Origin: Bacilli bacterium
GTDB taxonomy: Bacteria; Bacillota_I; Bacilli_A; RF39; UBA660
Direction of reading: 5' to 3'
Assembly: GCA_017411235.1 (NCBI GenBank)
Contig: JAFPMR010000284.1
Coordinates: forward strand, 1-13,304
DNA: 13,304 nt
The translations under genes were made by a program, and so were the position numbers. This document shows, in pieces, positions 1 to 11,172 of the stretch. Every line of letters starts with the position of its first letter. Within the stretch, counting starts at the first letter, position 1. The notes beneath the pieces were generated by a model. The model made no database searches, had not been told where the DNA came from, and saw nothing but the letters and a program-made list of their open reading frames with translations.

Positions 1-504
1 ATGCATTGTTTTAGCAAATTCATTAAAGAAGATATTACTTTTTATATTATGACCATAGAAGTGACCAACTGTATAAGTGGTTCCATCTTCTTTTTGCTTT
101 TCTTCTTTGGTATAAGCAGATGGTTTTCCTAAGTCATGAAATAATGCTGCAATACGTAATGCTGCACTATCACAATTTGTATTATCTATAACATGCATTG
201 TATGTTCAAAGACATCATAGATATGCCATTTATTATTTTGATTAAAATTATATGTTCCTTTTAAACCAGGTATTAATTCAAAGAATACTTCTTTGAATTC
301 TCTAATGTATCTATCTGGATGTACTGTTGTCATGATTTTTTTGAATTCTTTGTAAGCATCTTCTGGTTTTATTTGTTTTAATAAATCAATATTATCTAGT
401 ATTAGTTGTTTTATATCTGGTTCTACTACTAGATCATTTACAGCATACGCTTGTATCGTTATTAATAACAATAAAGGATTTTCTTTAAGCAATGTTGCAT
501 TCAT
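1..504 (-). CDS. Stand-alone HD-domain protein, C-terminus beyond window edge
   Basis: The frame is open for 168 codons from ATG at 504 to the window edge, so the C-terminus is missing. TAGGTGG lies just upstream of the ATG, the same ribosome-binding core used elsewhere here. About residue 80 onward matches an HD metal-dependent phosphohydrolase fold: ELIPGLKGTYNF, then HIYDVFEHTMHV (first His), FHDLGKP (the HD pair) and VGHFYGH (further His ligands). The spacing and wording closely resemble the HD half of bacterial CCA-adding tRNA nucleotidyltransferases (known family knowledge). No nucleotidyltransferase head precedes it; residues 1-75 are helical and unlike that fold. It is therefore probably a stand-alone nucleotide or phosphate-ester hydrolase needing divalent metal; the substrate is unknown. 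It starts 29 bases after the coiled-coil gene with no terminator between, so both should be co-transcribed under the manganese riboswitch. Confidence 0.82.
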   Translation of the reverse strand, partial: MNATLLKENPLLLLITIQAYAVNDLVVEPDIKQLILDNIDLLKQIKPEDAYKEFKKIMTTVHPDRYIREFKEVFFELIPGLKGTYNFNQNNKWHIYDVFEHTMHVIDNTNCDSAALRIAALFHDLGKPSAYTKEEKQKEDGTTYTVGHFYGHNIKSNIFFNEFAKTMH

Positions 505-533
505 AAAACCACCTAGTTTTATTTTAGCACATT

Positions 534-1676
534 TTAAACTAATTTTAATGTTTTTGGTTCTTCTTTACTATATCCTTTTATTTGAGTAATTATTGATTCA
601 ATAAGAAATTTTCTTGAAATACTAATTGGGTATTCACCTTTTACTAATTCATGTGCTTCTTGCATTGTTGCTTCATCGTTAGAAGTTATTCTACTAATGT
701 AATCTTGAATTTGAGCAATTAGTTCACTGTATTCATTATTAGATAAAACTTCTTGAATACTTAATTCATATATTCTTTGATTATCTGCTACTCTTAAATA
801 TCTCTTTTCACCAAATAGATTTGATAATCTTCTACTAATTGATGATAGTTGTGATAGATGTTCGAAGTAAGATTTGATAGCTAGTAATTGTTCTTTTGTT
901 AGTGATTGGAAGCTTTCCATTTCTTTTTTTCTTAATTCACATTTTTCTTGTTTCTTTCCAATCATTACTGAATGTCCTTTTAATTCTTTATATCTATCTG
1001 TTTTAAGTAAGAATTTTAGATATTTTCCGAATTTTTCATATCTTCTCATTCTTTTATTAGTTTCAGCGAAGTCTCTTTCTACTTCTTCTGGTTCTAATTC
1101 TTCATATCTATCTTTATAATAACTTTCACTAGATAAAATATTAGAATTTAATTCAATTGGTTGACCATCTAATACTGTGAAAGTACTTCCTGCATATTCA
1201 GTAACTTGTTCAGGATTAACCATGTTTGTATTTAGAGGACTTAATCTAGATAATTGATATTGTTGTCCCTCTATTGTAATTCCCATTTCTTGTAATGCTT
1301 TTATATCACTATCTAAGTCTTCTCTTGCTCTTTCATATTCATAACCAACAGATATTATTCGACGATCAAAGTCATTCTCTTCTTCTTTGATTACTTTTGG
1401 TCTTGCTTCTTCTACTGCTTTAATAAAGTCTTGAACAGAAGGTTGTAAGGAAATAGCTTTTATACATCTGTCTCTTTGCCAACTTTCACCGTTATAAACA
1501 ACAGGTGAATTTTTACGATGTTCTTCCATCTTACGTTGTTCTTCTTTTTTTCTACGTTCCTCTTCTTCTCTTCTACGTCTTTCTTCTCTTCTTCGACGCT
1601 CATTTTCTTGCATCATATACATATTTCTTTGATGCTGTTGTTGTTGCATGAGTAATAAAATAGGTACTATACTCAT
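534..1676 (-). CDS. Uncharacterised coiled-coil protein downstream of a manganese riboswitch
   Basis: I do not recognise this 380-residue protein. It opens with a short hydrophobic stretch (MSIVPILLLM) and a Gln run. Residues about 22-58 are almost only Arg, Glu and Lys (RRRREERRRREEEERRKKEE), which should form a highly charged single helix or coiled coil. The rest (about 60-380) is hydrophilic and mostly helical, with no catalytic motif I can name and no clear membrane segment beyond the weak N-terminal stretch. The start is well supported: AGGAGG at 1685-1690 sits 8 bases before ATG. It is the first gene after the riboswitch and terminator at 1704-1814, and is followed after 29 bases by the HD-domain gene. 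The context suggests a role that is useful when manganese is high, perhaps structural or regulatory together with the HD enzyme. That is inference. Confidence 0.88.
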   Translation of the reverse strand: MSIVPILLLMQQQQHQRNMYMMQENERRRREERRRREEEERRKKEEQRKMEEHRKNSPVVYNGESWQRDRCIKAISLQPSVQDFIKAVEEARPKVIKEEENDFDRRIISVGYEYERAREDLDSDIKALQEMGITIEGQQYQLSRLSPLNTNMVNPEQVTEYAGSTFTVLDGQPIELNSNILSSESYYKDRYEELEPEEVERDFAETNKRMRRYEKFGKYLKFLLKTDRYKELKGHSVMIGKKQEKCELRKKEMESFQSLTKEQLLAIKSYFEHLSQLSSISRRLSNLFGEKRYLRVADNQRIYELSIQEVLSNNEYSELIAQIQDYISRITSNDEATMQEAHELVKGEYPISISRKFLIESIITQIKGYSKEEPKTLKLV

Positions 1677-1703
1677 ATATCATTCCTCCTTTTTTCATAA
1701 GAT

Positions 1704-1743
1704 ATAAAAAAGACCTTATGAAATATACTATCATAAAGGTCTT
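1704..1743 (-). terminator. Riboswitch expression-platform terminator
   Basis: Minus-strand hairpin AAGACCUUUAUGA (1743-1731) with UCAUAAGGUCUU (1721-1710), one bulged U, about 12 bp, followed by a U run. Its 5' arm contains the aptamer's P1 3' strand, so the two folds exclude each other. The next gene's ribosome-binding site lies just after it. Confidence 0.85.
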
Positions 1744-1814
1744 GCAAATCATAGATTTATATATTCCGGATTATTATCGGATTGACGAAATATATATTGA
1801 GCTACTCTCCTCTA
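1734..1814 (-). ncRNA. yybP-ykoY (manganese-sensing) riboswitch aptamer
   Basis: Recognised from conserved blocks and pairing in the minus-strand RNA. P1 is UAGAGG (1814-1809) with CCUUUA (1739-1734). The loop-1 signature AGAGUAGC (1808-1801) follows; the family consensus is GGGGAGUAGC. P3 is UAUAUAU (1796-1790) with AUAUAUA (1764-1758). The loop-3 signature CGUCAA is at 1787-1782, and P4 is UCCG (1781-1778) with CGGA (1768-1765). The 3' signature GCAAGACCUUU is at 1745-1735. In characterised members Mn2+ bridges the GAGUAG and CGUCA loops and stabilises P1. Here CCUUU of P1 is also part of the terminator stem at 1710-1743, so metal binding should prevent termination and switch expression on. 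The transcript starts about 3-5 bases before P1. Family members usually control manganese exporters, which are absent here. Confidence 0.82.
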
Positions 1815-1823
1815 AGTACTTTA

Positions 1824-1852
1824 ATTATACCATATTTTAGGCATTTTTTCAA
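1824..1852 (-). promoter_or_regulatory. Sigma-A promoter for the riboswitch operon
   Basis: TTGAAA (1852-1847), exactly 17 bases, then TATAAT (1829-1824). Transcription should begin near 1817-1818, immediately before riboswitch P1. It lies only about ten bases past the kinase terminator. Confidence 0.85.
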
Positions 1853-7915: not shown

Positions 7916-10300
7916 TTATGATTTTAGATAATAAACCATATGACCAATATATGCTACTATAATAATTCCAATTACTACAAGAACTATTATAAGTATTGTG
8001 TTTTTATTTCCTTTTTTAGGTTCTCCTATTTCTTTTAGTTCAATTTTTTCTGGTTCTTTAAATGGTTCTTCTTCAACTTCTTCAGTTGGTTCTTCTACTT
8101 GTGTATTAATATCACCCATACTATAGAAGCTATCATTTAGATCTACTTTTTGGTTAGAAGAGTTTTTCATTGTACCTTTACTAACTCCTATTTTTGTTGA
8201 ACCTTTTTTCTTTGGAACATCAAAAGTTAGAATTTTAAAAGTACCCGTTTTTCCTGTTTCAGTTTGAAGATCGAATCCGTCATTATCTGCAGATCCTTCC
8301 CATTCACTATCAATAATTATGTTTTCTATTTCGTCATCATCGTTTGAAATAAAATCTCCACCTACTGAGATAATATCATCTTCAGATTCACCATACAATG
8401 TACATGTTGATAATTCGCTATTTGATGGATTATCTTCACAAACAATTTCATAACTATTTGGATTATTATCTTTGATTGAACAATTGAATGTTTTGTTTGT
8501 TGTTGTACCATCAGACCATACATAACCTTTACTTAGAACAGCAGAAACACTATATGTTCCAACTTTGGTTGCTTTGTTGTCTTTAAATGTGTAAGAACTT
8601 GGTGAAGTTTTAGTTAGAACTTGTTCTTTGCCGTTATAAGTTAGATCATTACAATAGTTTTCTGATGTTGGTATTACTTGTTTAGCTGTTTTAGAAGTTC
8701 TTGTTCCTCCACTATCAAAGCAATGATATTCATTACTAATTAATTGACAAGTATCTTTTAAAGCAGATCCGGTAGGTCCAGTTCCATATTCGTTAGCTTT
8801 TGTTCTAAAGTAATACACTTTATTATTAACTGTTTGGAAGCCCTTAACCATTTCACCTGCAGGTCCAGTTCCGTATTGATCTTTGGCAGGTCGTAATAGA
8901 TATAAGTCAGTTCTTCCGTTATACTGAATGTTTCTTAAACCAGTTAACATTTCTCCAGTTGGTGAACAACCAGTATTTAGTTCACAGAAATAATACCAAC
9001 CTTTTCTACCATTGTAATCTAAGTTTTGCCAACCGGTTACCATAGCTCCGGAACTATTAAAGTAATACCAACCTTTTTTATTATTATATTCTAAGAATTG
9101 CCAGCCGGTTTGCATTGCTCCGTTACTATCAAAATAGTACCAATCCAACTGACCTTTATATTCTAAGTGTTGCCAACCAGTTACTGGTTTACCATTTTTA
9201 AAGTAGTAGTAATAATCACCACTTGTAAATGAAAGTTTTTGCCAACCGTTCATTGCATTGGAAATATCATAAGAATAGAAGCCTACCTTCCAACTATTTT
9301 TACCATTATCAAATTGATAACTAATAAGCATTTTATTTCCATCAAAAGCAATATTATCTAATTCACCATATAAGTCTTTACCTGAGATATAGAATGTTCT
9401 ATTTATAGGATATGAGTTACCTGAAACATCATATTCATAAATTAATGCACTATATGGTTCTTTACTATTGTAGTGATTTGGTTGATGAGATGATTTTTGT
9501 CCGGCTTCAAATGTTGCTACATATAGTTTATTATTTCTATATGCTAAACTTTGGAAAGTTAAATTTGTTGTTGTACTAAAGATTTCAGTCCATTTAAAGT
9601 CTAGTGTTACATTATATACTTTAGGTGTTGAATGACCAATATATCTATTTCTTGTATAGTCATAAGTAAAGCCAGAATAGCCATCATTTGTAGAACCTGT
9701 GCTACTTAGACGATAATTTGTTATTTGATAACTATTACTTATTTTAAATGCTGCTATTTTACGTCCTTGTACTGGTCCGCTATTTGCACTAGTACTATAC
9801 CAAGGGTTAGCTGTTATTAATACTTCACCAGTATTGGAATTATATGCTAAATCGTTGGCATGACCAAAACAGTAATCATCTATGATGTTTAATACTTTAT
9901 AGGTATTTTTATCAGCAATTACTAATAGTGTATTTTTTTTGTTGTTTTCTTCTGAGGATTTACCATTGTTTGGATTATAAACTAAAGTAAAGATTAAATA
10001 TTTGTCTGTTATGGTCATTCCTTGCATACCATAATCATAGAAATCTAAACCATCTAAACCATATTTACTTGGATCTATATCGTAATGTCCATAAGACAAG
10101 TCATACATTTTTTCTAATTTTGGATAGATACGTGTAAGATTAGCACTAGGAGTATTCCAGTTTAAATCTGTTGCAGCTCCGTAAGATATTCCTTTTTTAT
10201 CTGATGTTATATTTATTGTTAAGATGCTAACTATAGAAAAAACTATAATAAATAATGCGATGTATAGAAATTTGTTAGAACTCTTACTAGTTTTTATCAT
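7916..10300 (-). CDS. Large surface protein: propeller-like domain, wall-binding repeats, Ig-like and cohesin-like domains, two membrane anchors
   Basis: A 794-aa exported protein. Residues 11-28 are an uncleaved-looking signal anchor. About 45-365 are beta-rich with short strand repeats and the motif CFGHANDLAYNSNTGE, suggesting a beta-propeller. About 365-535 contain cell-wall-binding (choline/glucan-binding type) repeats of the form TGWQxLEYNxKxGWYYFNSxGAM, with later copies interrupted by YGTGPxGE inserts. About 550-615 resemble a bacterial Ig-like module (LTYNGKEQ, GTYSVSAVLSKGYVWSDG). About 620-740 look cohesin-like. An acidic Pro/Glu linker (about 741-760) leads to a C-terminal membrane helix (about 768-790) with no LPXTG motif. 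Cysteines fall in close pairs, suggesting disulfides. A long GGAGG-ATAGATAAAT-ATG spacing supports the start. Likely role: adhesion or wall attachment. Confidence 0.85.
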   Translation of the reverse strand: MIKTSKSSNKFLYIALFIIVFSIVSILTINITSDKKGISYGAATDLNWNTPSANLTRIYPKLEKMYDLSYGHYDIDPSKYGLDGLDFYDYGMQGMTITDKYLIFTLVYNPNNGKSSEENNKKNTLLVIADKNTYKVLNIIDDYCFGHANDLAYNSNTGEVLITANPWYSTSANSGPVQGRKIAAFKISNSYQITNYRLSSTGSTNDGYSGFTYDYTRNRYIGHSTPKVYNVTLDFKWTEIFSTTTNLTFQSLAYRNNKLYVATFEAGQKSSHQPNHYNSKEPYSALIYEYDVSGNSYPINRTFYISGKDLYGELDNIAFDGNKMLISYQFDNGKNSWKVGFYSYDISNAMNGWQKLSFTSGDYYYYFKNGKPVTGWQHLEYKGQLDWYYFDSNGAMQTGWQFLEYNNKKGWYYFNSSGAMVTGWQNLDYNGRKGWYYFCELNTGCSPTGEMLTGLRNIQYNGRTDLYLLRPAKDQYGTGPAGEMVKGFQTVNNKVYYFRTKANEYGTGPTGSALKDTCQLISNEYHCFDSGGTRTSKTAKQVIPTSENYCNDLTYNGKEQVLTKTSPSSYTFKDNKATKVGTYSVSAVLSKGYVWSDGTTTNKTFNCSIKDNNPNSYEIVCEDNPSNSELSTCTLYGESEDDIISVGGDFISNDDDEIENIIIDSEWEGSADNDGFDLQTETGKTGTFKILTFDVPKKKGSTKIGVSKGTMKNSSNQKVDLNDSFYSMGDINTQVEEPTEEVEEEPFKEPEKIELKEIGEPKKGNKNTILIIVLVVIGIIIVAYIGHMVYYLKS

Positions 10301-10429: not shown

Positions 10430-11149
10430 TTATGCACATCTCATTTTAACATTATCATTATTTTGACCTAGAATAGCACAGCTAGTTTCATAATGCATAC
10501 TTGCGTATCCATTTGTTTTAGTGTCACCATTGTATGAACCATCTGTACATGTGTAAGTATGTCCGTCAGAAATAGTTTTACATTGGTCACTTTTAAATAC
10601 TTGGTTTAAAATAGCAACATTACTACTATGGTATTGACCTGCAGTTGTTCCTTCTAAACAGTAGATATTATTATCTTTTAAGATACATGAATATGCTCTA
10701 GTTATTCTATTGTTTGTTAGAACAAAACCAAAGAAGTTATGTCTTTGTTTGCCACCGGGTGTTTTTAAGTTGTTAACATCTGTTGTATATTCACTATCAG
10801 ATAATGTTGAACCAAAAGTTCTTTCATCAGTGAAGTATGCATATACACATCCTTCGCAATTGATTACTTTTTCTACTACTACTTTTTCATTATCGATAGG
10901 TTTGTTATCTTCGTCATCTATATCAAGTATTTCATCATCGTTTGTGATAGTTTCTTCTCTATCTTTTTTACGATCTTCTTCGTAGTCTTTCTTTTGTTCT
11001 TCTTTTTGTCTTTCTTCTTTCTTTTTCTTCTCTTTTTCAGCTGTTCTTGTTTTGTCTCTTGATGATTCTTCATCATCGTCTTTGTCACCACATGCTGTTA
11101 AAGTAAAGATAGCTATGATAGCTAATAAAGCAATTAATAGTTTTTTCAT
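10430..11149 (-). CDS. Cysteine-rich lipoprotein with a charged stalk
   Basis: A 239-aa predicted lipoprotein. The signal peptide MKKLLIALLAIIAIFTLTAC ends in a lipobox (LTAC), so Cys20 should be lipidated and the protein anchored on the outer membrane face. Residues about 21-95 are extremely charged (Lys/Glu then Asp/Glu), a likely extended or coiled-coil stalk. The globular C-terminal half carries eight Cys in four spaced pairs: NCEGC, CILKDNNIYC, CKTISDGHTYTC and CAILGQNNDNVKMRC. This is a pattern expected of disulfide-bonded folds. I do not recognise the family. The ATG at 11149 follows GAGGAG by 8 bases and is preferred over GTG at 11158. The gene starts 23 bases after the 307-aa protein's stop with no terminator between, so it is probably the second gene of that operon; a strong terminator follows. 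Confidence 0.87.
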   Translation of the reverse strand: MKKLLIALLAIIAIFTLTACGDKDDDEESSRDKTRTAEKEKKKKEERQKEEQKKDYEEDRKKDREETITNDDEILDIDDEDNKPIDNEKVVVEKVINCEGCVYAYFTDERTFGSTLSDSEYTTDVNNLKTPGGKQRHNFFGFVLTNNRITRAYSCILKDNNIYCLEGTTAGQYHSSNVAILNQVFKSDQCKTISDGHTYTCTDGSYNGDTKTNGYASMHYETSCAILGQNNDNVKMRCA

Positions 11150-11172
11150 AAAGTTCACTCCTCACTTATATA

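Follow-up and report, generated by a model that had tools for sequence, protein, structure and literature searches.

On the minus strand of the window (the whole stretch of 13,304 nt analysed here, from a Bacilli bacterium), a promoter, an aptamer, an intrinsic terminator and an AGGAGG sequence follow one another ahead of an ORF for a 380-aa protein, beyond which lies part of a gene for an HD-domain protein (Table 1). The conserved blocks in this leader are GGAGAGUAGC, CGUCAAUCCG...UCCGG and UUGCAAGACCUUU. The initial annotation had read the element as a manganese riboswitch that has a promoter of its own and switches between P1 and a terminator, and both parts of that layout hold. The -35 and -10 boxes match the consensus closely and are also kept in the leader alignment at two other loci (L001 and L002); the promoter scan itself, of a kind that is weak, found one site against a shuffle mean of 2.7. 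The 5' arm of the terminator includes the 3' strand of P1.1, and the hairpin (1743-1706) is absent from the output of a plain consensus terminator scan. Folded as a single sequence, the whole leader does not rise above its shuffles (z -0.72), and support for the element is thus comparative, not thermodynamic.

Table 1. Features of the leader and of the genes that follow it in the window.
Feature	Position	Strand	Basis or remark
Extended -10 promoter, sigma-70 type	1824..1852	-	TTGAAA-17-TATAAT, TG ahead of -10, 11/12 matches
yybP-ykoY (Mn2+) aptamer, compact, without P2 hairpin	1731..1818	-	R1 match and alignment with L001/L002
P1.1 switch helix, 5' strand	1809..1813	-	partner strand 1739-1735; aligned to R1/R2
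L1 loop AGAGUA	1803..1808	-	leader alignment
L3 adenosine, at the place of L. lactis A41	1783	-	in GUCAAUCC, aligned to the motif in the extract of PMC6754395
Intrinsic terminator hairpin	1706..1743	-	AAGACCUUUAUGA...UCAUAAGGUCUUUUUU, -11.4 kcal/mol
Ribosome binding site AGGAGG	1685..1690	-	sequence
ORF of the 380-aa protein	534..1676	-	N-terminal R/E-rich helix, then mainly helical body; 55 homologues
HD / PolyA_pol_RNAbd protein, CCA-enzyme-like part	1..504	-	truncated by the window end

Class membership and anatomy of the aptamer

The initial annotation had named the lack of an RF00080 hit as evidence against a yybP-ykoY element, and that is what the search returned: the Rfam model has no match to the window at its gathering cut-off (45 bits) or at E<=10, and none at E<=10 in the two genomes with the same leader (L001, L002). 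Across 395 Bacilli-class genomes it likewise yields nothing above the cut-off, and the 18 sub-threshold hits at E<=0.001 (15 genomes) precede genes for cation ATPases (8), MntP (5), sodium/calcium exchangers (4) and a citrate-type permease (1), these targets being assigned by Pfam for 9/18 and by eye for the rest. Because even MntP and ATPase leaders fall below the cut-off, the RF00080 test is uninformative, and indeed not valid, in this clade. The class assignment is carried instead by R1, a model of five P-type-ATPase leaders of the class (alignment A5) with a hand-given structure and with the window excluded from training, which matches the window at 1818-1731 (minus strand) with 56.9 bits (E 1.9e-10 in 62 kb), L002 with 56.0 bits and L001 with 54.4 bits. 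Beyond these, its matches at E<=10 within the 62 kb comprise ten leaders from the RF00080 class set together with a further L001 element. A survey model built from 22 matches (R2) gives 64.2 bits on the window, with an E-value that is not independent since the window is in its training set, and at E<=10 it finds no further match elsewhere in the window. Comparison thus establishes the class of this RNA, and on that footing the window leader is a genuine but unusually small yybP-ykoY-class element.

In its L1/L3 core, its A41 equivalent and its P1.1/P1.2/P3/P4 pairing, the element resembles the Mn2+ riboswitch of Lactococcus lactis yoaB, and that of Xanthomonas oryzae (PMC11087558, PMC6754395, PMC9190785; papers are cited here, by PMC number, for extracts of their text), and in the L. 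lactis switch, too, P1.1 competes with an intrinsic terminator (PMC11087558). The Mn2+ site of L. lactis comprises G9, U39, C40, A41, U44 and C45, with P1.1 formed by A3-G7 and by C96 and following bases (PMC9190785); the ligands of the ion are phosphates and N7 of A41, a base of the L3 motif UCA41AU43UC (PMC6754395). The window keeps the equivalents of G9, U39, C40, A41 and C45, and the U44 place is C in our own alignment. The element departs from the L. lactis switch in an L1 that begins with A in place of G, in the lack of P2 and in a target that is no known Mn2+ homeostasis gene. The L1 loop reads GGAGUA in 144/148 aligned rows, one base of six away from the AGAGUA of the window, and the leading A is confined to the window, the two elements of L001 and L002 (4/148 rows, where the A8, A9 and A10 rows partly overlap and L122/L128 duplicate each other). 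G8 of the L1 motif pairs with A94 (PMC6754395); the A of the window stands at the place of G8, and we count it against our main reading. P2 is replaced by a linker, UCAA, and the four-way junction that was looked for is absent; without the hairpin, a three-way junction is predicted in its stead. By a crude stem test P2 is also absent from 29/87 elements of a class sample (described below), 26 of them before reference transporters. Its loss is therefore not peculiar to this element and need not mean decay, and we file the window element as a P2-less variant.

The helices P1.1, P1.2, P3 and P3.2 covary across relatives, with two-sided changes in 27/28 pairs in A8 and 27/28 in A10; P1.2, for example, alternates between GC/GC and GU/AC. 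Paired cells make up 92.6% of A8, as against 65.5% when shuffled and 33-48% when slid, in a model-fitted alignment that favours structure. The overlap between the terminator and P1.1 recurs by comparison in 44/46 aligned loci (the misses are L079 and L087) against a shuffled mean of 14.4 (maximum 22), in a test that is lenient and has the window among the 46. The closest aligned sequences are the P-type ATPase leaders L073-L076 and L084 of the class, which have the same terminator layout and which, unlike the window, have P2, GGAGUA and a cation ATPase target. The element is also like most of the elements L093-L131 from the order, with the same core, small genomes and non-transport targets, although in these P1.2 is mostly GU/AC, not GC/GC. 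In three of these elements the A41 position is altered (U in L106 and L108, G in L116; alignment-dependent), and they may be natural ion-specificity variants.

The 380-aa protein and its neighbours

The gene into which the element leads is, as first proposed, not a known exporter: its product has no Pfam match at E<=0.01, no NCBIfam match over cut-off and no PHROGs match, and no part of it is strongly hydrophobic (15-residue hydropathy peaks at 0.83). The predicted structure is confident (pLDDT 88.8, pTM 0.68) and is built of long helices, with a small insert of strands at 133-168, and structure searches returned coiled-coil similarity only, with no clear PDB fold match. Among 29 aligned sequences of the family there is no conserved His/Asp/Glu cluster suggesting an Mn2+ enzyme; the acidic, Cys and Asn residues that are conserved in 26 or more of the 29 lie scattered, and His is absent among them. 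Scattered conserved residues and the absence of His favour a scaffold-like coiled coil over a metal enzyme or store, and we infer a coiled-coil scaffold, either cytoplasmic or peripheral to the membrane, that high Mn2+ would induce. Storage, sensing or protection, the functions suggested in the initial annotation, would be conjectural, and the conserved residues lack the look of a metal site. It has no BLAST match to those target proteins of the order relatives against which it was tested.

A profile search of GTDB contigs located two homologue loci, L001 and L002, both with the leader directly upstream, so that by comparison the leader and the 380-aa family are linked in 3/3 loci readable upstream (the window included), out of 55 homologues. 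Mean column identity of the three leaders is 87% over 173 columns, and the L001 and L002 proteins share 60 and 53% identity with that of the window; a leader that is better conserved than its protein across three diverged loci counts against a decayed element. The protein is rare among named genomes, with a hit in 1/386 genomes of the family, namely the query genome itself (G001); G002 is not among the hits.

The HD gene lies 30 nt downstream of the 380-aa gene and is possibly co-transcribed with it, no terminator-like site having been found in window 1-700. Its place in the controlled unit, as proposed in the initial annotation, is not supported by comparison, as the next gene differs at each locus: in L002 it encodes a 310-aa coiled coil, and in L001 a protein that we take, by eye, to be DUF1848-like. 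The HD gene is thus no conserved partner.

Other features of these loci may be recorded here. L001 carries at 1537-1643 a second Mn2+-riboswitch-like element (R1 34.4 bits; L1 AGAGUA), which precedes a 68-aa ORF resembling the tail of a lost gene. The window (10430-11158) and L001 (2148-2867) each encode a lipoprotein-like protein containing a charged stretch; the two proteins share 55% identity over 242 columns, which suggests that the window and L001 organisms are close. At 7916-10300 the window encodes a 794-aa protein with, as judged by eye, choline-binding-like YY/W repeats (GWQxLxYxGxxGWYYF) and a C-terminal hydrophobic segment.

Targets of related elements in the order and the class

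A large portion of the genes behind yybP-ykoY elements encode transporters (PMC3766115), and yybP RNAs also accompany diverse genes that are hard to square with Mn2+ sensing (PMC7266159). We surveyed relatives of the window with R2, which matched 22/291 genomes of the family (E<=0.01) and 22/337 of the order (E<=0.001); these overlapping samples hold 39 different elements in 30 genomes, counts that are lower bounds because few candidates per genome were scored. With the target taken as the first plausible downstream gene, 32/39 elements precede genes not known as transporters. The other seven comprise six before cation transporters (L100, L101, L107, L112, L113 and L126; by Pfam for L101 and L107, by likeness for the rest) and L109, before an ABC ATPase truncated by the contig end. 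Pfam was run on 25 of the 32 non-transporter targets (and on the L095 remnant besides), with five over cut-off (L093, L097, L099, L121, L124) and 20 without. Many of the 32 fall into recurring BLAST groups, i.e., SPFH/Band_7 proteins (L097, L121, L128), lipoprotein-like proteins (L098, L105, L106, L108), deoxyribosyltransferase-like proteins (L093, L125) and four further groups (L096, L118, L129, L131; L102, L116; L104, L119, L127; and L110, L114, L120, with L111 weaker), and single targets include NfeD (L099) and AdoMet decarboxylase (L124). Targets are uncertain at L095 (a 68-aa remnant), L123 (a small ORF) and L130 (two short ORFs), and at L097, L099, L102, L110, L114 and L120 the distance from the GAGUAG motif to the gene start is 181-227 nt, which may leave room for a different start or a gap.

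One genome, G682, has five Mn2+-riboswitch-like elements in 1.1 Mb, two of which (L122 and L128) lie about 600 nt apart, each with its own gene (for a 138-aa protein and an SPFH protein, respectively); tandem Mn2+ riboswitches are reported as lacking in the extract of PMC9481103.

As a control, R2 was applied to the class, where it found 106 elements in 85/247 genomes. Of these, 87 were examined, the omissions being five in order genomes already counted, four of the RF00080 set and ten of the lowest-scoring; some of the 87 repeat elements of the RF00080 set. By BLAST, 80/87 match reference transporters (48 P-type ATPase, 16 MntP, 15 sodium/calcium exchanger, one citrate-type), and five precede other membrane transport proteins, namely OAD beta and CNNM/CorC (each a look-alike pair of which one member was identified by Pfam) and one phosphate-type protein (by eye). 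Behind the remaining two, L184 and L200, lie genes whose products match the L121 SPFH protein; together with NfeD at L099, they may tie Mn2+ to membrane-domain proteins. The expectation that such elements mostly control exporters therefore describes the class sample well (85/87 before membrane transport proteins) and the order relatives poorly (7/39). Fisher's test on transporter and other targets, 85/2 in the class vs 7/32 in the order, gives 9e-21, a value that is only a guide, as rows share descent, the choice of gene was scripted for one set and made by eye for the other, and some of the class genomes may belong to the order.

Exporter-type genes occur in the order as well, with MntP in 2/5 genomes and E1-E2 ATPases in 3/5. 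R2 has no match at E<=1 at the eight MntP/ATPase loci fetched from five order genomes; six of these (in G002, G021 and G682) have leader-sized upstream room, and upstream DNA is short at the other two (181 nt at L223, the G001 ATPase, and 118 nt at L225, in G002). These absences carry little weight, since the ATPases may act on various ions and the genomes may be incomplete.

Mechanism, alternatives and a candidate regulon

On the evidence of sequence comparison, we consider it likely that the leader is a compact yybP-ykoY Mn2+ ON switch, acting on transcription, that drives one item of a lineage-specific and mostly non-transport regulon. At low Mn2+, the 3' strand of P1.1 would be drawn into the terminator and transcription would end ahead of the 380-aa gene; at high Mn2+, L1 and L3 would dock around the ion, P1.1 would be held, the terminator would not form and the gene would be read. 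This scheme follows the mechanism described for the L. lactis switch (PMC11087558), from which, by analogy, we infer both Mn2+ as the ligand and the direction of switching.

The non-transport targets could be read in another way, as the genes of an ordinary Mn2+ switch that acts on an unrecognised factor of Mn2+ homeostasis (e.g., a buffer, a chaperone or an exporter subunit), with poor annotation, not a wider regulon, behind their appearance. The many scanned targets without a Pfam match leave room for some that handle metal, and the envelope, in which exported enzymes receive metal from TerC proteins (PMC10246235), is indicated by the SPFH, NfeD and lipoprotein-like targets. Yet the targets form several BLAST-unrelated groups, including nucleoside-2-deoxyribosyltransferase-like proteins, with an AdoMet decarboxylase besides, and the 380-aa protein has neither a strongly hydrophobic stretch nor a metal-site pattern, so that we regard this explanation as rather unlikely.

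It appears more doubtful still that the element is a yybP-ykoY relative with a shifted ion preference (e.g., for another divalent ion), its non-transport targets reflecting that other signal. Ion variants are considered likely in the extract of PMC7266159 and would help to explain genes inconsistent with Mn2+ sensing, and the A at the first L1 base and the changed A41 place of L106, L108 and L116 would be in keeping with such a shift; the window, however, retains five equivalents of the L. lactis Mn2+ site, A41 among them, and exporter leaders of the same order share the same kind of core. We hold it highly improbable that the element is decayed or blind to its ligand, leaving a promoter-driven gene with partial constitutive read-through. 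The loss of P2, the change in L1 and the weak single-sequence fold could all be marks of decay, as could the second L001 element and its remnant-like ORF, but P2 is lost just as well before reference transporters, and conservation is higher in the leader than in the protein downstream of it.

Returning to the Mn2+ ON switch, a wider proposal, which we find plausible and open to doubt in equal measure, is that the Mn2+ riboswitch has turned into a general switch for non-transport genes within a single order-level group of small-genome Bacilli. These genes would form a regulon whose products belong to the envelope and the cytoplasm, for the most part lack known domains and respond to Mn2+ as inducer (or, in variants, to a related ion), with the 380-aa protein as one effector and with the exporter-type genes of G002, G021 and G682 lacking a detectable switch at six loci. 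In the open-licence literature covered (titles and abstract openings, with two founding 2015 papers outside that scope), no non-transport Mn2+ riboswitch regulon in this group appears among the matches listed.

As RF00080 at its cut-off misses this lineage, the riboswitch class is undercounted there. Mn2+ riboswitches are usually taken as switches of export and homeostasis, and the lineage offers a list of candidate Mn2+-responsive functions.
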